A stretch of DNA of 64,000 nt from an uncultured Alphaproteobacteria bacterium (GTDB taxonomy: Bacteria; Pseudomonadota; Alphaproteobacteria; Rhodobacterales; Rhodobacteraceae), in NCBI GenBank assembly GCA_902537235.1, contig CACBAO010000006.1:1-64000 (forward strand). The letters run 5' to 3'. The stretch's first letter is position 1, and the number at the start of each line of letters is the position of its first letter. The position numbers were made by a program, and so were the translations under genes. Positions 31,213 to 62,301 of this stretch are shown here, piece by piece. Below the pieces are notes generated by a model. It saw only the letters and a list, made by a program, of their open reading frames with translations. It was not told where the DNA came from and did not search any database.

Positions 31213-33078
31213 TTATTTTTCCCTTAGCCCATAAGGTTTGAGGGTAGATATTAACTCGTTAAGATATGTTTTATCACGCGCAGTAATATATTCTTTATGA
31301 ATAATTTCACCAGTTTTACCCTTTCCGTCGATGGCTTTATGTAGCTCGAACATTTTTTTTGCTTTCTTCTTACTTCCCTTCAACTCATACAGATAAGCAA
31401 GTTGCAAATATAATGTTTGGTCAACCCCACTCCAATTATGCTTTTCATTTAATTTCGTAAGAGCGAAGCTCTCAGATTTCTCATATTGTTTATTTTCAAT
31501 TAAAGCGTGATTGTACATATAAAATATCCATGCCGCATGATGGGGATTCGACAACATTATTTTTTCATAGTTTTCTATTGCTTCTCCTAGATTACCACAG
31601 GAGTGAATAACTATATTGGCTGTGGCTAAATCTGAAAGATCTTTTACTTCCTTTATCAATGTGGGTATTCTACTACAGGCTTTGTCATACTTTTTTAAAA
31701 ATAATTCGATCATGCCTGCTAAAGTTTTAGGCGTTGCCCAATTAGGAAACTCATCAATTGTATTTAATGCAATAGAATAGGCTATTTCCATATCTCTTTT
31801 GGGATCATCAGACATTCTCATAGTGACTTTTCTCCAATGAACCCATGCCATCATAAAATTTAATCGTCGGTGGTTTGGATCTAGCTCTATGGCCTTTTTC
31901 CATAGCCTTTCGGCTTTTTCACTTCCCTCCACCGTTTTAAGGCCAAAAGCAGCCCATGCATTGAGAAAATGTCTATACGCTTCTGGGTTAGTGAAATAAT
32001 TTTTCTGGGTTAACTGTGATCCGCTTGTCTTAACTCTCATGTGCTCCAAAATGGCTATACTTATCTTTTCTTGAACAGGAAAAAGTTCCTTTAACTCCTT
32101 AAAGTCAAAAAGTTTTGACCATACAACCTCACTCTTTTTGAGATCAGTCATTTGTAAGGAAACGCGATAGGCTCCTTCAGCACCCTGAACATCTCCTCTT
32201 AAAAGATATTGAATGCCATAGTTTTCTAATATCTCGCTATCAGAATAATTTTTCTCCTGAACATATTTACCAGTGCTAGAGGAAGATACCAATATTGAGT
32301 CATTAATTGATAAGGTAGAGATAATATTACTTGTTATTCCAAATCCTATGAAGTCATTATCAGATTTCCCAGTTTGATTTTCAAATGGAATGACCAAAAC
32401 TGAGGGTTTATCCGTTGGCATGTTTTGAATTTTGCTTACTAGTTTTGTATCTGATTGGAAATAAAAAATAATTCCAATAACTACTACTGCGAATACGGAG
32501 GCTACAAGACCTAAATTTCGTAGTATCGGATTTGAAGATGTTCTTAGAGTTCGTTTTTGCGATTTACTTAAAAGAATATCATAGGCGTAAAATTCATTTT
32601 CTTTGACTTTTTGTAAACCAAGATCATTGAAGGATAAATTTACTTTTCCTTTAACTAAATCAAATATTGACTTGGAAATCGTTACTCCTGAAGGTTGAGC
32701 CAAGGCCTCTAGTCTCGCTGCAATATTAACGCCATCTCCAAGAAGATTTCGCTTCTCTTTTATTACGTCACCCATATGTATTCCAACTCGAAATTGCAAC
32801 TTAATTGGAAGATTATTCTGAGAGTAAAATTCTCTTAGACGTCCTTGAAATTCAGATGCGCATTCAACAGCTGATACGGCGCTAGGGAATTCGGCAAAGA
32901 AAGAGTCGCCACCAGAATTAAAGAGACGCCCTTCATATTTTTTGAACAGATCTTTAAGAATATTTTCGCATGCTCGAAGAGTTTTTACTGACTCATTCTC
33001 ATTTTTTTCCATATGCTTGCTATAACCAACGACATCAGTGGCAAAAATAACTGCTATTTTTCTATTTATGGTGTTAAT
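31213..33078 (-). CDS. Class III adenylate/guanylate cyclase with TM segment, TolB-like domain and TPR region; N-terminal start unclear
   Basis: Frame upstream of the ATG at 33012 encodes INRKIAVIFATDVVGYSKH, the conserved N-terminal catalytic motif; then LFNSGGDSFFAEFPSAVSAVECA, LLGDGVNIAARLEALA, TM, PSVLVIPFENQTGKSDNDFIGFGI, TPRs. No ATG/GTG/TTG in frame between 33012 and the upstream stop (33118-33120). Confidence 0.8.
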   Translation of the reverse strand: MNTINRKIAVIFATDVVGYSKHMEKNENESVKTLRACENILKDLFKKYEGRLFNSGGDSFFAEFPSAVSAVECASEFQGRLREFYSQNNLPIKLQFRVGIHMGDVIKEKRNLLGDGVNIAARLEALAQPSGVTISKSIFDLVKGKVNLSFNDLGLQKVKENEFYAYDILLSKSQKRTLRTSSNPILRNLGLVASVFAVVVIGIIFYFQSDTKLVSKIQNMPTDKPSVLVIPFENQTGKSDNDFIGFGITSNIISTLSINDSILVSSSSTGKYVQEKNYSDSEILENYGIQYLLRGDVQGAEGAYRVSLQMTDLKKSEVVWSKLFDFKELKELFPVQEKISIAILEHMRVKTSGSQLTQKNYFTNPEAYRHFLNAWAAFGLKTVEGSEKAERLWKKAIELDPNHRRLNFMMAWVHWRKVTMRMSDDPKRDMEIAYSIALNTIDEFPNWATPKTLAGMIELFLKKYDKACSRIPTLIKEVKDLSDLATANIVIHSCGNLGEAIENYEKIMLSNPHHAAWIFYMYNHALIENKQYEKSESFALTKLNEKHNWSGVDQTLYLQLAYLYELKGSKKKAKKMFELHKAIDGKGKTGEIIHKEYITARDKTYLNELISTLKPYGLREK

Positions 33079-54765: not shown

Positions 54766-54789
54766 GCAGGATCTAAGGATTGATAAATT

Positions 54790-56346
54790 ATGAAATTTAA
54801 ACCTATACCTCATGACGTCGAGAAAGATAAAAGCTACTTTTGGTGCAGTTGTGGAAAGAGTAAAAATCAGCCTTTCTGCGATGGTAGTCATGCAGGTAGT
54901 GAATTTGCACCCTTAAAATATGTAGCGGAGGAAACAGAGACGAAATATTTCTGCACATGTAAAAAGACAAAAAACAAACCTTTCTGTGATGGTAGTCACA
55001 ATAAACTAAATCAAAGTCTCAATGATGAAGATCTCTTTTCTGCACTAGTACACCCTGACAAGAAAAAAATAGAGGTAGGTGTAGATGAAACAATACTCAC
55101 AGCATCAATAAGAAATAATATATCTCACTTAAGTGCTTGCGGAGGTACTGGAAAATGCTCGACTTGCAGAGTTGAAATTACAGAAGGATTAGAAAATTGT
55201 TCTCCAAGATCAGATGCTGAGAAAAAACTATCGAATAAGCTTTCCTTTCCCGAAAATATAAGACTTGCCTGCCAAACCACAATAAGCGGACCTGTTTCGT
55301 ACAGAAGACTTCTCCTCGACAAGAGGGATTTGAGTAATTCAAATAAATTGTCTGATACGAAACTAGAGTCTGTTGGTACTATAAGAAATTTGACGGTGAT
55401 GTTTTGCGATATAAAGGGTTTTACCCCTTTTTCTGAGGCGCTTGCTGCTTATGATGTGATATTCATTTTAAATAGATACATCTCTATAATGCGCGAAATC
55501 ATTATTAAAAATGGTGGAGAGATAAATAATTATATTGGTGATGCAATTTTGGCTATCTTTGGTCTCAAAGACTCAAGACAACAGACACTCAGAGCAGCAA
55601 ATACAGCATTAGAAATGCTAAAAGCTATGGACGAATTTAAGGATTATCTATCTCAAGCTTACGGGAGAGATTTTGATATACGAATAGGTGTTCATTACGG
55701 TGAAGCCATTCTAGGTTCTGTTGGTTTTGGCGAAGACAAAAAATTTACCATAATTGGAGACACTGTAAATATTGCCAGTAGAATTGAAGCTATAAATAAA
55801 GAGGCGGGAACACGTTTTCTTATTTCCGATGTTGCTTATGAAAGAATTAAAGATGCTGTTGATGTAAGAAATTTTGTGCGATTAAAATTAAGAGGATCCA
55901 GCAATTTAATCACCCTGCATGAGGTTAGCGGTCTAAATAAAGATAAGCTAATAGATCACTCTGATATTAAAATAAAAGAGATTGATGGCAATACTTGGAT
56001 AAGGACTTTGCCCATTAGCGAGCTCGATGTCGGCGAAAAGAAAAAGTTTGAATATGATGGAAAAGAATTTCTTCTTATAAATCAGGAAGGCATCTTTGCT
56101 ATCGAGAATATATGTCCTCACATGAATTTACCATTGGACATAGGTCAGATAACAGATGAGGGAACTATTTTATGTCCTTATCATAATAGTGAGTTTTGTT
56201 TTAGATCAGGTGAAGTGAGAAAATGGGTTGGATTACAACCTAAAGAAGTTGAAAGAGACTGTGAGCCACTTACGGTTATTTCCACTCTGGAAGCAGATAG
56301 TTATATCTGGATTCAGAAACTTAAAGGCAGGGGACGATATAGGTAA
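54790..56346 (+). CDS. Multi-domain FeS nucleotide cyclase: CDGSH x2, [2Fe-2S] ferredoxin, class III cyclase, Rieske
   Basis: CSCGKSKNQPFCDGSH (aa 19-34), CTCKKTKNKPFCDGSH (aa 55-70), C117-x5-C123-x2-C126...C161 ferredoxin motif, LTVMFCDIKGFT / NNYIGDAILAIFG / IIGDTVNIASRIE cyclase motifs, C442-x-H444-x17-C462-x2-H465 Rieske motif; one uninterrupted ORF. Confidence 0.93.
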   Translation: MKFKPIPHDVEKDKSYFWCSCGKSKNQPFCDGSHAGSEFAPLKYVAEETETKYFCTCKKTKNKPFCDGSHNKLNQSLNDEDLFSALVHPDKKKIEVGVDETILTASIRNNISHLSACGGTGKCSTCRVEITEGLENCSPRSDAEKKLSNKLSFPENIRLACQTTISGPVSYRRLLLDKRDLSNSNKLSDTKLESVGTIRNLTVMFCDIKGFTPFSEALAAYDVIFILNRYISIMREIIIKNGGEINNYIGDAILAIFGLKDSRQQTLRAANTALEMLKAMDEFKDYLSQAYGRDFDIRIGVHYGEAILGSVGFGEDKKFTIIGDTVNIASRIEAINKEAGTRFLISDVAYERIKDAVDVRNFVRLKLRGSSNLITLHEVSGLNKDKLIDHSDIKIKEIDGNTWIRTLPISELDVGEKKKFEYDGKEFLLINQEGIFAIENICPHMNLPLDIGQITDEGTILCPYHNSEFCFRSGEVRKWVGLQPKEVERDCEPLTVISTLEADSYIWIQKLKGRGRYR

Positions 56347-56351
56347 ACACA

Positions 56352-57149
56352 TTGGTAGATTATATTAAAAAAGATAGGATAGCATTTATCACACTTAATC
56401 GACCTGAAGCTAAGAATGCAATAGATCCTCCAACACACAAAAGGCTATGGGAAATTTGGGAAGATTTTGAAAGTGATAATAGTGTTGACATAGCCATACT
56501 TACAGGTAATGGAGATGCCTTTTGTGCAGGAGCAGATTTAAAAAGCTACATGTCCCGATGGCCTAATGCGAACCCAGAAAAAGTTCGTAAGAATATAGCT
56601 GATGGATTAGGAGGATTGACCAGAGGACTTCATCGCTTGAAAAAGCCTACCATAGCGGCTGTCAACGGATGGGCATTAGCAGGAGGATTTGAAACGGCGC
56701 TGGCCTGTGATATTCGTATTGCATCTGAGTATGCTAAGTTTGGGTCTTTCGAGGCTAGGAGAGGATTTCATCATGGTGATGGGGGGATACCAAGGCTAAT
56801 TAATTCTGCCGGGCTCAGTGTCGCTATGCAGATGCTACTCACTGCTGAACCAATTGACGCGAATAGGGCTTTTCAATGGAATTTGGTCAGTGAAGTAGTG
56901 CCTCATGAATCATTGATGGAAAGAGCAGAATTGATTGCACGTCAAATATTGCGAAATGATCAAGTTGCTGTACGTTCGGCCAAAGAGACCATTCTGGATA
57001 TGATCGGAAGAAACTTAGATGATCAGCTTCGCGTTGAGGCAATTAACGGTTACAGTGTTGCCACGAGAAAAGAAGTGCTTTCTCGATTGCAAGAGTTTTA
57101 CGAAAAATCAGATAAAGGAAGACACGGTAAGAATTCTACTCAACTCTAA
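56352..57149 (+). CDS. Enoyl-CoA hydratase/isomerase family protein
   Basis: AFITLNRPEAKNAID, AILTGNGDAFCAGADLKSY, AAVNGWALAGGFETALACDIRIASEYAKFG; TTG start. Confidence 0.94.
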   Translation: MVDYIKKDRIAFITLNRPEAKNAIDPPTHKRLWEIWEDFESDNSVDIAILTGNGDAFCAGADLKSYMSRWPNANPEKVRKNIADGLGGLTRGLHRLKKPTIAAVNGWALAGGFETALACDIRIASEYAKFGSFEARRGFHHGDGGIPRLINSAGLSVAMQMLLTAEPIDANRAFQWNLVSEVVPHESLMERAELIARQILRNDQVAVRSAKETILDMIGRNLDDQLRVEAINGYSVATRKEVLSRLQEFYEKSDKGRHGKNSTQL

Positions 57150-57275
57150 TCAATGGTATATGTGCGGCGCAACAATGCCTTCGTGTCTCGATTAAATAGT
57201 TTTTTTTGTAAACTTATTGAATACAGTTTCCATATTAAGCATACTAATGTCTGGTTCTTTATTAGGGAGGAAAAA

Positions 57276-58805
57276 ATGAAATTTTTAAGAGATACCTTTA
57301 TAATGTCCATAGTTTTTATTTTATCTCCATTTATTGCACTCGCAGATAAATCGGATGATACGCTTGTAATAGCGTTTACAAGAGAAATAACCAACTTGGA
57401 CTATAATTATGGTACAAAAACTGAGTACATAATTCTAGGTGATATGATTGACGATTCTTTATTTTATGTCGAACCAGAAAACTTGTCTTATGCTCCATCC
57501 TTGGCATCAGATTTCAAAATCGTTAATGAAACTACGATCGACGTAAATTTAAAACAAGGAGTGAAGTTTCATGACGGCTCAGAAATGACAGCTGATGATG
57601 TAGTCTACACTTTTAACTTTATAAACAAAAACGATAAGAACAGACGTCATTCAAAAGTTTCAGGATGGTTGGATAGTATAGAACGGACTGGAAAATATTC
57701 TGTGAGGTTCAACTTAAAAACTCCCTATGCTAACTTTTTCAATGATTGCTATCGAATTAAGATAAGAAAAAAGGGGATTATGGGTACTGAGGGTAACTGG
57801 ATAGATGATGCACAAGCGACATCGAATACAGGCCTTGGACCGTATAAGGTAATATCTTTTGAGCCAGGAGTAGAAGTTGTGCTTGAAAGAAATGAAGAGT
57901 ATTTCAATGGACCGAAAGGTAAACCAGCAATCAAAAATTTAATCATAAGATCCATACCTGATATGGGTACCCAGCAGGCTGAGTTGATGAGTGGTGGTAT
58001 TCATTGGATGTACAATGTTAAAAAAGATATTGGTGAAGCAATGGCTAAGACGGGTAAAGCAGATTATCAGCTTGGACCTAGTTTAAGAGTAGGGTTTCTA
58101 GTCTTGGATGCTGGAGGATATTCTGGAGAGGGTAATCCAATTACAAAGCTAGAAGTAAGAAGAGCGATGAACCATGCAATAAACAGAAATAGCATTGCGA
58201 CGAATCTTATTGGAGGCCCCGCTAAAGCTATTCATACCGCGTGTAACCCAGTGGTATTTGGGTGTTTCCAAGATGTTATGAAATATGAATATAATCCTGA
58301 GAAGGCCAAAGAATTGCTAGTGCAAGCTGGTTATCCAAATGGTTTTGACTTAGAACTTTATTCATATAGGGACAAAGAAGCGGCCTTAGCTATGGTAGAC
58401 GATCTTGCGAAAGTTGGAATAAACGTGTCTTTGAAACATGGGAAACTAGCTGTTCTGAATAAAGCCCGTAAAGCAAGACAGATAAGAGCTTACTTTGGAA
58501 CGTGGGGATCTTCCGCTTCTCCAGATACTGCAACAATTTCCAACATCCATTGGAGAAATCCTGAGAAGGGTGATAGAAACCTTAGTGGAGATCCGAAAGT
58601 TAATGAGCTCATGCTTGGAGGCGAGCAAACTTTAGACAAAGAGGAAAGAAAACGACTTTATGCTGAAGGTTTAAAATTGATTGCTGAACAAGCATATTGG
58701 GTTCCACTTTGGTCGTATTCCGAAGGGGTTTTATCGAGCAAAGATATTAACTTTGTTCAAGATCCTGACGGATATCCAAGAATTTGGAAAACCACTTGGA
58801 AATAA
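57276..58805 (+). CDS. Peptide/nickel-type ABC transporter substrate-binding protein
   Basis: ATG at 57276 preceded by AGGGAGG; signal peptide; VKFHDGSEMTADDVVYTFNFI, GLGPYKVISFEPG. Confidence 0.94.
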   Translation: MKFLRDTFIMSIVFILSPFIALADKSDDTLVIAFTREITNLDYNYGTKTEYIILGDMIDDSLFYVEPENLSYAPSLASDFKIVNETTIDVNLKQGVKFHDGSEMTADDVVYTFNFINKNDKNRRHSKVSGWLDSIERTGKYSVRFNLKTPYANFFNDCYRIKIRKKGIMGTEGNWIDDAQATSNTGLGPYKVISFEPGVEVVLERNEEYFNGPKGKPAIKNLIIRSIPDMGTQQAELMSGGIHWMYNVKKDIGEAMAKTGKADYQLGPSLRVGFLVLDAGGYSGEGNPITKLEVRRAMNHAINRNSIATNLIGGPAKAIHTACNPVVFGCFQDVMKYEYNPEKAKELLVQAGYPNGFDLELYSYRDKEAALAMVDDLAKVGINVSLKHGKLAVLNKARKARQIRAYFGTWGSSASPDTATISNIHWRNPEKGDRNLSGDPKVNELMLGGEQTLDKEERKRLYAEGLKLIAEQAYWVPLWSYSEGVLSSKDINFVQDPDGYPRIWKTTWK

Positions 58806-58858
58806 AAACTTTTTGGCTTGGCGATAAATTATGACTTTCTTCAAAGTGAACAACTGAA

Positions 58859-59773
58859 ATGTTAAAATTTGTCGCCGGGCGGTTTTTAGTATCTTTAGCT
58901 GTCGCGTTCACAATCTCTTTCGTAACATTTTTTTTTCTTAATATTTTTACTGATCCTGCTCAAGCTGTTGCAGGAGAAGAAGCATTGTTTGAAGAAATTG
59001 AGCAGATAAGAACACAGTATGGCTTTGATCGACCGATCCTCACTAGATATTTTGAATGGTTGGGGGGAATTTTTACGGGAGATTTTGGAGTAAGCTATTA
59101 CTGGAATAAACCTGTCGGTACGCTTTTATTAGAAAGAGCACCACAGACAATAAAGCTTGCTTTGATGTCCGTAAGTGTGACCATTATGGTTGCTATCCCC
59201 TTAGGAATATTCGCTGCATTAAACCCAAATTCAATAATAGATCGTTTTGCGTTAAGCGTAGCTGTTTCTGCTCAAGCTATCCCTAATTTTTGGTTAGGGC
59301 TTATTCTTATTATTATTTTTTCCGTAACCTTTCAAATATTCCCAGTTTCAGGAGATAAAACATATTACCATTTTATTTTGCCATCAATTGTTCTTGGCAC
59401 TAGTTCCGTTCCTCCTGTGATGCGATTAATGCGGACGGGTTTACTTGATGTAATTAACTCTGATTATATTAGAACAGCCCGTTCGATTGGATTTTCCGGT
59501 TGGAGGTTGGTCACAAAGCATGCTTTAAGAAATGCTGTTTTACCAGTAATAAGTGTAGTTGCTGTGCAGCTTGGACACAAATTTGGAGGTTCACTAATAA
59601 CTGAGTCTGTTTTCGCAATAAATGGACTGGGACGATTAGCATTACTATCTATTTTAGGAGCTGATATCCCAACTGTTCAAATTTTAATTTTTGTTTTTGC
59701 CATTACTTTTATAGTTTTTAACCTTTTGTCTGACATTTTAAATGCATATTTAGATCCTAGGTTACGGTTATGA
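58859..59773 (+). CDS. ABC transporter permease (DppB-like)
   Basis: FVAGRFLVSLAVAFTISFVTFF, RTARSIGFSGWRLVTKHALRNAVLPVISV. Confidence 0.95.
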   Translation: MLKFVAGRFLVSLAVAFTISFVTFFFLNIFTDPAQAVAGEEALFEEIEQIRTQYGFDRPILTRYFEWLGGIFTGDFGVSYYWNKPVGTLLLERAPQTIKLALMSVSVTIMVAIPLGIFAALNPNSIIDRFALSVAVSAQAIPNFWLGLILIIIFSVTFQIFPVSGDKTYYHFILPSIVLGTSSVPPVMRLMRTGLLDVINSDYIRTARSIGFSGWRLVTKHALRNAVLPVISVVAVQLGHKFGGSLITESVFAINGLGRLALLSILGADIPTVQILIFVFAITFIVFNLLSDILNAYLDPRLRL

Positions 59774-60693
59774 TTTTGAAATATATATTTAGACATACAA
59801 ATCCTGATTTTCTGAATAGAGATTTTGAAAAGCTGACGCCTAAAGATATAATGTTCAGAAAAGCCATTTATCATTCGGGTTTTAAATTTGGCTTACTTCT
59901 TCTATCTACAATAACGTTTATAGGAGTTTTTGTTCCCTTTTTTGTCGATATGTCTCCATATGATCAAGATATTTCAAAGCGCCTACTACCACCAGTTTGG
60001 TCAGAGGGCGGTTCTTGGCAGTATATTTTTGGAACTGATGGAAATGGAAGAGACTATTTAGCGCGGATAATTTATGGAACAAGGGTCTCTCTAACAATCG
60101 GTATTGGTGCGGCGACCGTTGGAATGTTGATTGGTGTCACATTGGGAGTAATAGCAGGATACTTTGGTGGTATTGTTGATCAAGTTGTAAGCTACATTCT
60201 TACTTGTCAACTAGCGTTGCCAGGAATTTTATTTTTGCTAACAATAATCTCTATTGTTGGGTCCTCACTAACAGTGGTTATTTTAGTTATTGGTGTCTTA
60301 CATTGGACTCTTTTCTTAGTTGTTACTAGAGCTGCGACTCAAAGAATAAGAAACCTCGATTACATAACAGCAGCAAACGCTATTGGAGCAAGGAAAACGA
60401 ATATAATATTTACCGATATATTACCGAATGTCTTAAATCAAATTATTGTAATTTTTACACTTGAGGTTGGCGTTGCAATTTTAGCAGAAGCAACTATTTC
60501 CTTTTTAGGTTTAGGGATTCAACCGCCTACTCCATCTTGGGGTGTATTAATAGCTGAAGGTAAAGAAGCAATATTTTTTCAACCTTGGCTTATTATTCTT
60601 CCAGGTATAGCTCTTTTCCTTTTAGTTATTTCAATCAATATGTTGGGAGATGGCCTGAGAGATATTACTGATCCTAATACTAATATTGAATAA
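59770..60693 (+). CDS. ABC transporter permease (DppC-like)
   Basis: FGTDGNGRDYLARIIYGTRVSLTIG, EATISFLGLGIQPPTPSWGVLIAEGK. Confidence 0.95.
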   Translation: MILKYIFRHTNPDFLNRDFEKLTPKDIMFRKAIYHSGFKFGLLLLSTITFIGVFVPFFVDMSPYDQDISKRLLPPVWSEGGSWQYIFGTDGNGRDYLARIIYGTRVSLTIGIGAATVGMLIGVTLGVIAGYFGGIVDQVVSYILTCQLALPGILFLLTIISIVGSSLTVVILVIGVLHWTLFLVVTRAATQRIRNLDYITAANAIGARKTNIIFTDILPNVLNQIIVIFTLEVGVAILAEATISFLGLGIQPPTPSWGVLIAEGKEAIFFQPWLIILPGIALFLLVISINMLGDGLRDITDPNTNIE

Positions 60694-60696
60694 ATA

Positions 60697-62301
60697 ATGG
60701 AAACGACACTTCTTGAAATAAAAAATCTAAACATTTCATTTAATGTTAGTAAAAATATTGTAAATACTGTGGATAATTTTAGTTTGACGCTCAAAGAGAA
60801 AGAGACAATTGGTATTGTCGGAGAGTCTGGAAGTGGTAAAACAATTTCTATGTTAGGTCTTACAAGACTTCTACCTAAACAAGCTTTCGTAGACAAAGGA
60901 TCGATCCTTTTCAAGGGAAGAGATATTTCTAATATATCAAATAAAGAATTTTATCAAAAAATTAGCGGAAAAAAAATTTCAATGATCTTTCAGGAGCCTA
61001 TGACTGCCCTGAATCCAGTGTATACCATTGGAAGACAATTGATATCAACCTATTTATTCCATAATGATGTGTCAAGAAATAGTGCTTACAATAGGGCAAT
61101 TGAATTTTTAGATAAAGTTCAACTAACAAATGTTAAAGAGCGAATGGCTCAATATCCTCATCAACTTTCAGGTGGCCAAAGACAAAGGGTTATGATTGCG
61201 ATGGCATTGATAAATAGCCCTGAATTACTAATTGCTGATGAACCAACCACTGCCTTAGACGTTACTGTCCAAAAAGAGATTGTTGGGTTAATTCAGAAAT
61301 TAATTGAAAACCTTGGAATGGCCATGATCTTCATTTCCCATGATCTAGGTTTAGTATCAAAAACCTGTGAAGATATAATTGTGATGGAAAAGGGATTAAT
61401 ATTAGAAAGTGGTAAAGCAAAAGACGTCTTAACTCGACCTAAGGAAAATTACACAAAAAACCTCTTAAAATGTTTATGGAGTTTAGATGTTGATCATAAA
61501 AAAATTAATGAGTATAGGACCTTACTACTTGACGTCAAGGATATTTCTAAATCTTATCAACTCCCTGGAAGTATTCTAAAACCTAAAAAAGTTATAAATG
61601 CGGTCAGAAATGTTTCTTTTGAAATTTTTAAAGGGGAAACATTGGCGATAGTGGGTGAATCAGGTTCAGGCAAGTCTACGGTTGCAAAGATTATTAACGG
61701 CCTTACCAAAATGGACTCGGGAGACGTTTTGCTAGAAGGTAAAAAAATCGATAGTTATTCTCCATTAGAAAGAGCATTGCGTATTCAGCCTGTTTTTCAA
61801 GATCCCTATTCGACGCTAAATCCTAACCACACAATTGGTTTTATTGTTAGAAGGCCCCTTTTGCTAAATACGTCTCTGTCTTACGATGAAATAGAAACGA
61901 AAGTGGCAAAAACATTGGACTTGGTTGGTTTATCTAAAAATTTTATTAATAGATTTCCGAGCCAACTATCAGGAGGTCAGAGGCAGAGGGTCGCAATCGC
62001 CCGTGCAATAATTCTGGAACCTAAAATACTTATTTGTGATGAGCCGACTTCATCTTTGGACGTAACAATTCAATCTCAAATTTTGGATCTTCTCAATGAA
62101 CTTAAAGCACGGTTAAAAATAACTATTGTTCTTATAAGCCATAATATTTCCGTGGTGAAGTTCCTGTCTGATAGGGTCTTGGTAATGAATAATGGAGAAA
62201 TTCTGGAGAGTGGTAATACACTTAATATTATAAATAAGCCAAAAAATAATTATACGAAGAAATTAATGTCAGCTATTTTTACTGTTAAGAAAAAAGTGTG
62301 A
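60697..62301 (+). CDS. ABC transporter ATP-binding protein, two fused NBDs (DppD-DppF-like)
   Basis: Two Walker A motifs (GESGSGKTIS, GESGSGKSTV), two LSGGQRQRV signatures. Confidence 0.95.
   Translation: METTLLEIKNLNISFNVSKNIVNTVDNFSLTLKEKETIGIVGESGSGKTISMLGLTRLLPKQAFVDKGSILFKGRDISNISNKEFYQKISGKKISMIFQEPMTALNPVYTIGRQLISTYLFHNDVSRNSAYNRAIEFLDKVQLTNVKERMAQYPHQLSGGQRQRVMIAMALINSPELLIADEPTTALDVTVQKEIVGLIQKLIENLGMAMIFISHDLGLVSKTCEDIIVMEKGLILESGKAKDVLTRPKENYTKNLLKCLWSLDVDHKKINEYRTLLLDVKDISKSYQLPGSILKPKKVINAVRNVSFEIFKGETLAIVGESGSGKSTVAKIINGLTKMDSGDVLLEGKKIDSYSPLERALRIQPVFQDPYSTLNPNHTIGFIVRRPLLLNTSLSYDEIETKVAKTLDLVGLSKNFINRFPSQLSGGQRQRVAIARAIILEPKILICDEPTSSLDVTIQSQILDLLNELKARLKITIVLISHNISVVKFLSDRVLVMNNGEILESGNTLNIINKPKNNYTKKLMSAIFTVKKKV

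Follow-up and report, generated by a model that had tools for sequence, protein, structure and literature searches.

A soluble class III cyclase-domain protein with CDGSH, ferredoxin and Rieske modules in marine Alphaproteobacteria and SAR324

Domain architecture and catalytic site

The window, a 64,000-nucleotide stretch of contig CACBAO010000006.1 (assembly GCA_902537235.1) from an uncultured alphaproteobacterium, encodes a protein of 518 residues in one reading frame that is free of internal stops, as the original prediction had it. The proposed succession of five modules also stands, since Pfam matches that all exceed their gathering scores, together with matches to sequences of known structure in the PDB, place two CDGSH motifs, an adrenodoxin-type ferredoxin (Fer2), a class III cyclase domain and a Rieske domain in this order, with the full set of cluster ligands and core catalytic residues in place. 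The gene, of which orthologues exist, and its features are as follows:

54790..56346, plus strand: whole gene, 518 aa plus stop (ATG at 54790, stop at 56344-56346)
54775..54779, plus strand: possible ribosome-binding site AAGGA, 10 bases 5' of the ATG, proposed from the sequence
54790..55011, plus strand: CISD3-like double-CDGSH unit, aa 1-74 (Pfam PF09360 in two stretches; 3tbn over aa 4-72)
54844..54891, plus strand: CDGSH motif 1, aa 19-34 (ligands C19, C21, C30, H34)
54952..54999, plus strand: CDGSH motif 2, aa 55-70 (ligands C55, C57, C66, H70)
55042..55305, plus strand: Fer2 domain, aa 85-172 (Pfam; ligands C117, C123, C126 and C161 in the pattern C-x5-C-x2-C ... C)
55306..55380, plus strand: ferredoxin-to-cyclase linker of fixed length, aa 173-197
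55381..55938, plus strand: class III cyclase catalytic domain, aa 198-383 (PF00211; alignments to CyaB and Cya2; invariance)
55987..56319, plus strand: Rieske domain, aa 400-510 (Pfam PF00355; ligands C442, H444, C462, H465)

A hydropathy scan revealed no membrane helix (best 19-residue mean 1.13), and an Rfam search found no match near the gene and hence no RNA element. An AlphaFold model built from a 16-sequence input (pLDDT 74.7, pTM 0.45) is not reliable for the relative placement of the domains, and a domain arrangement read from it was dropped on account of the low pTM; in Foldseek, the catalytic domain of the model matches CyaB, Cya2 and CyaC.

The N-terminal region gives a zf-CDGSH match in two stretches (E=1.3e-17), and PDB sequence searches align aa 4-72 to the double-CDGSH protein 3tbn (1.5e-21) and aa 5-70 to human CISD3 (6avj). 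Each of the two motifs is a complete 3Cys-1His set, as in double-motif CDGSH (NEET) proteins, and judged by these alignments they are a single CISD3-like unit rather than two unrelated modules. CISD3/Miner2 and the bacterial double-CDGSH proteins (3tbn, 6avj) likewise have two C-x-C-x2-[ST]-x3-P-x-C-D-G-S-H motifs per chain, but they stand alone, whereas the unit described here is fused to a cyclase. The genome also holds a separate small CDGSH frame of 72 aa (L101; G000:C5:98595-98696, minus strand). In a survey of CDGSH architectures, the partner domains named are Fer4_19, Glu_synthase, Ferritin-like and Rieske, and the word cyclase is absent from its text (PMC5859297). The original prediction knew of no description of this module order, and in the literature that we searched, with partial coverage, we likewise found no described fusion of a CDGSH or Rieske domain with a cyclase; such fusions may already be listed, undescribed, in domain-architecture databases.

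The resemblance to CISD3 admits a reading in which the protein is mainly a sensor of NO, or of light plus NO, because Miner2/CISD3, in its reduced state, takes up NO in a reversible manner and gives it off on illumination. Reversible NO binding by reduced mitoNEET and Miner2 is documented (PMC9490426), and double-CDGSH proteins, CISD3 among them, head the structural matches to aa 4-72. We nevertheless hold this reading to be very unlikely, as NO-related genes are absent beside the gene in the neighbourhoods examined, and the Rieske and ferredoxin domains would be superfluous.

The Fer2 match is above cut-off (2.1e-10, aa 89-165) with adrenodoxin/ISC-type cysteine spacing, and its ligands are invariant in 16 sequences. 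The Rieske domain (1e-14, aa 403-479) shows the C-x-H ... C-x2-H pattern; aa 401-484 align to Rieske ferredoxin components, including 8jng and 3gce, in a PDB sequence search, and the top NCBIfam Rieske match is HcaC. It resembles such components (HcaC, carbazole dioxygenase ferredoxin) in its C-x-H-x17-C-x2-H motif and in lacking the extra disulfide cysteines of the bc1 type, yet in dioxygenases these are separate small electron carriers, whereas here the Rieske is the C-terminal domain of a cyclase. The cluster ligands are conserved among the orthologues and the intermediate forms. Counted by ligands, the protein is predicted to carry four [2Fe-2S] clusters, the maximum originally proposed, a figure that understated the family, as six are predicted in 10 relatives.

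The catalytic domain matches Guanylate_cyc (PF00211; 1.9e-25, aa 198-371, 90 bits against a cut-off of 21.9), and aa 199-383 align to CyaB (3r5g), Cya2 (2w01) and CyaC in a PDB sequence search. From these alignments we assigned D207 and D251 to metal binding, N247 and T320 to the base site, and N327 and R331 to the transition state; apart from N247, every one of these residues is unchanged in 16 sequences that comprise orthologues and intermediates. Homology above cut-off, the two metal aspartates and the Asn/Arg pair place the domain in class III. The base-selecting position is occupied by lysine in adenylyl cyclases and by glutamate in guanylyl cyclases (PMC4215837). Alignment to CyaB shows that the adenine-selecting lysine is replaced by Asn247 throughout the CDGSH-bearing clade, so that T320 is present without the lysine that, paired with an Asp or Thr, recognises adenine in ATP-specific adenylyl cyclases, and the glutamate of a class III guanylyl cyclase is likewise missing; for this reason we speak of a nucleotidyl rather than an adenylyl cyclase. 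The lysine is found in every relative examined that has a six-helix membrane anchor (6TM) and in the simpler soluble proteins L047 and L048, while asparagine is already present in L066 and L067. As a separate observation, five soluble Fer2-cyclases (L092, L093, L096, L098, L099) that belong to a different family within the phylum read SDVAGD at the base site, where DK[FY][IV]GD stands elsewhere.

The product may thus be cAMP or cGMP, between which the sequence alone cannot tell, and Asn247 could also be a sign of altered or low activity. Rv1900c may offer a precedent as an active cyclase with asparagine at the base site. The substitution of the adenine-selecting lysine in the entire clade would also suit a catalytic domain that is no longer a normal cyclase, in a protein that acts as an electron-transfer or Fe-S scaffold in metabolism. 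We consider such a role quite unlikely, given that both metal aspartates, the Asn/Arg pair and the threonine are invariant and that the cyclase is the most constrained of the large domains.

Distribution, selection and simpler relatives

To find orthologues, GTDB species genomes were scanned with six peptide patterns, which yielded 22 loci, either full-length or contig-edge copies, with identity down to 59%. The 22 sequences are distinct, 59-96% identical, and come from independent assemblies, namely single-cell genomes and MAGs labelled as marine Alphaproteobacteria, SAR324 and one 'Deltaproteobacteria' bin. The gene is present in 14 of 22 genomes of the window's genus, many of them incomplete, and in 3 of 52 genomes of the SAR324 phylum; besides the window's own genome, a single full-length match was found in 387 sampled genomes of the class, and none of 399 sampled genomes from the phylum contained it. 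Viral contigs held no relatives, and we rejected a viral or phage origin on that ground. The occurrence of the gene in both SAR324 and Alphaproteobacteria implies transfer at some point.

An architecture this rare, with one full-length match in 387 genomes of the class apart from the window's genome, might be an artefact of chimeric assembly or a functionless fusion that arose recently by chance, but 22 distinct sequences from independent assemblies and two lineages speak against it. So does selection: in no domain does dN/dS against close relatives come near 1 (most comparisons give about 0.02-0.10), indicating purifying selection on each, and the orthologues form one well-supported clade. 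We therefore rejected this explanation, whose probability we regard as negligible.

The number of CDGSH motifs varies, with four (two tandem units) in 10 of the 22 distinct orthologue sequences and two in the other 12; Pfam recovers four stretches in L024 and L038. The copy identities and periods fit separate duplications or repeated homogenisation: in L011 the DNA of the two units is 98% identical and the period is 100 aa, in two close relatives of the window the copies are 90-91% identical and the period is 82 aa, and in the SAR324 group identity is 72-77%. In L041, an upstream unit is decayed, with three stops. We dropped an attempt to read a contraction from four motifs to two off mosaic sites, since a 5' part resembling copy A and a 3' part resembling copy B is expected under either history.

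The open ocean is often low in iron. The variable number of CDGSH units would suit a role in capacity or titration, and the hosts live in waters where low iron is often met, both of which agree with a protein that reports Fe-S supply or damage rather than electron flow, its labile CDGSH and Rieske clusters being lost under iron limitation or oxidative stress so that the apo or holo state sets activity. We regard this alternative as unlikely, because ferredoxin and Rieske domains as a rule hold stable clusters that carry electrons and because CyaC, the closest studied relative, is a redox sensor.

Simpler proteins share the core. Soluble Fer2-cyclases with neither CDGSH nor Rieske are represented by L048 and by proteins of about 310 aa elsewhere in the phylum, and Fer2-cyclase-Rieske proteins without CDGSH by L047/P0002, L066, L067 and L072, as well as by L091 on inspection by eye. 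Among these, L048, L047/P0002, L066, L067 and L091 resemble the core of the window protein and differ in lacking CDGSH, L048 also in lacking the Rieske, and L047 and L048 in retaining the lysine. In a maximum-likelihood tree built on the Fer2-cyclase core, the CDGSH form is a single clade (100/99) whose sister is L066, a Fer2-cyclase-Rieske protein from SAR324 (100/98), and the 6TM-Fer2-cyclases make up a separate clade (100/100); the order of some deep branches, which are long, is uncertain. An earlier tree was concordant once the contig-edge copy L014 was removed, and L014 was rejected as a natural CDGSH-less form within the genus, its match ending at the contig edge. On the simplest reading of the tree, the Rieske would have joined first and CDGSH afterwards.

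Comparison with CyaC-type cyclases and gene neighbourhood

The nearest known kind is represented by Sinorhizobium meliloti CyaC (PMC10463352) and by the class IIIb cyclases of the 6TM diheme-ferredoxin type (PMC4821796, cluster 1, for example Q132R4). Ferredoxin-bearing class IIIb enzymes with cytochrome b-like anchors constitute a recognised cluster (PMC4821796), and CyaC is reported to respond, by way of its hemes, to the redox state of the quinones (PMC10463352). As in these enzymes, the ferredoxin of the window protein lies directly N-terminal of the class III cyclase domain, and identity to CyaC-type relatives over aa 85-380 is 31-38%. The spacing from the first to the fourth ferredoxin cysteine is identical at 44, and that from the last cysteine to the first catalytic aspartate is nearly so: 46 residues (C161 to D207) in every soluble CDGSH- or Rieske-bearing form measured, L047, L066 and L067 included, and in L048, against 42-43 in 6TM members with a placeable motif. 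This near-constancy argues for a joint between ferredoxin and catalytic domain that the window protein shares with CyaC-type enzymes. The window protein differs in lacking the anchor of six helices and four heme histidines, being soluble with CDGSH at its N-terminus, in adding that CDGSH unit and a C-terminal Rieske, and in having asparagine for the base-site lysine, and it falls outside the 6TM clade. The soluble CDGSH and Rieske domains stand in place of the membrane heme domain. The coupling to redox, O2 or NO status suggested in the original prediction gains support from this core, homologous and with near-constant spacing to quinone-responsive CyaC-type cyclases.

Comparison of neighbourhoods revealed no partner, reductase or effector gene conserved beside the gene across lineages; the neighbourhood is kept within the genus only and is different in other lineages, and a conserved partner was rejected. 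Even within the genus, gene content just downstream varies (window 56352-62301 versus L024 7797-8642), in that the window and L025 have an enoyl-CoA hydratase and an ABC transporter set of the peptide type, and most other relatives a UbiE-like methyltransferase. At L039 (4531-9074) and L040 (1423-4901), the orthologue lies on the same strand and with short gaps between genes read from sequence as guaB (IMP dehydrogenase) and guaA (GMP synthase), a suggestive placement that would suit the use of GTP but is not general. In one sub-lineage (L033 3250-4941 and L028 3262-4941), a 6TM-type Fer2-cyclase paralogue is located about 1 kb upstream of the orthologue, with an RcnB-like gene on the other strand between them.

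The host genome (G000; 1.92 Mb, about 80% complete) contains 20 class III cyclase-domain matches, an unusually dense set for so small a genome, but only four cNMP-binding matches. The window itself encodes a second cyclase-domain protein (31213-33012, minus strand; 599 aa), in which an N-terminal partial cyclase domain (profile positions 30-171) precedes TPR repeats, and many of the weaker cyclase matches of the genome are of similar length.

A model for Fe-S control and its significance

We favour, with moderate confidence, a model in which [2Fe-2S] clusters set the activity of a soluble class III (IIIb-like) nucleotidyl cyclase that resides in the cytosol, probably as a homodimer, and that probably turns the redox or iron-sulfur state of the cell into a cyclic-nucleotide signal; by analogy, the protein would correspond to the CyaC-type diheme-ferredoxin cyclases, but in a cytosolic form devoid of heme. 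The N-terminal CDGSH unit or units and the C-terminal Rieske would exchange electrons with soluble redox carriers and hand their redox state to the ferredoxin, which, via the linker of fixed length, would move the dimeric cyclase from a less active to a more active form or back; CRP-like regulators would then respond to the cyclic nucleotide. The gene, its domains, ligands and catalytic residues, their conservation and selection, and the homology and spacing to the CyaC-type core are seen directly in the sequences; within this model we infer cluster occupancy, dimerisation, potentials, electron path, direction of control and the choice between cAMP and cGMP. It draws on the redox response of CyaC and on mitoNEET, which has a potential of about -30 mV at pH 7.4, takes electrons from FMNH2 and delivers them to O2 or ubiquinone, and in its reduced form binds NO reversibly (PMC9490426). 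Signalling downstream is plausible given the cyclase-domain and cNMP-binding matches of the host genome, whose four cNMP-binding proteins are possible receivers of the signal, while the lack of a conserved reductase or effector neighbour, the asparagine at the adenine-selecting site and the low pTM of the predicted structure count against the model.

A broader proposal, which we advance only as an improbable speculation, is that of a family of soluble cyclases with four to six clusters of three types, whose graded response to redox or NO is tuned as CDGSH units are gained and lost, and in which the lost lysine confers GTP or dual specificity, placing cGMP or both nucleotides under Fe-S control in marine Alphaproteobacteria and SAR324.

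Redox control of ferredoxin-linked class III cyclases is already known, and the soluble form flanked by CDGSH and Rieske domains is not a new category. Redox-controlled cyclases that are anchored in the membrane by a heme domain are known; a soluble form with as many as six [2Fe-2S] clusters, of three types, would be a new route from the redox or Fe-S status of the cytosol to second messengers. It also joins to a signalling enzyme the CDGSH units that are best known from stand-alone proteins and from mitochondria. As a soluble single chain it should be easier to work with than CyaC, and the natural series from Fer2-cyclase through the addition of Rieske, then two and then four CDGSH motifs makes the contribution of each module directly testable.
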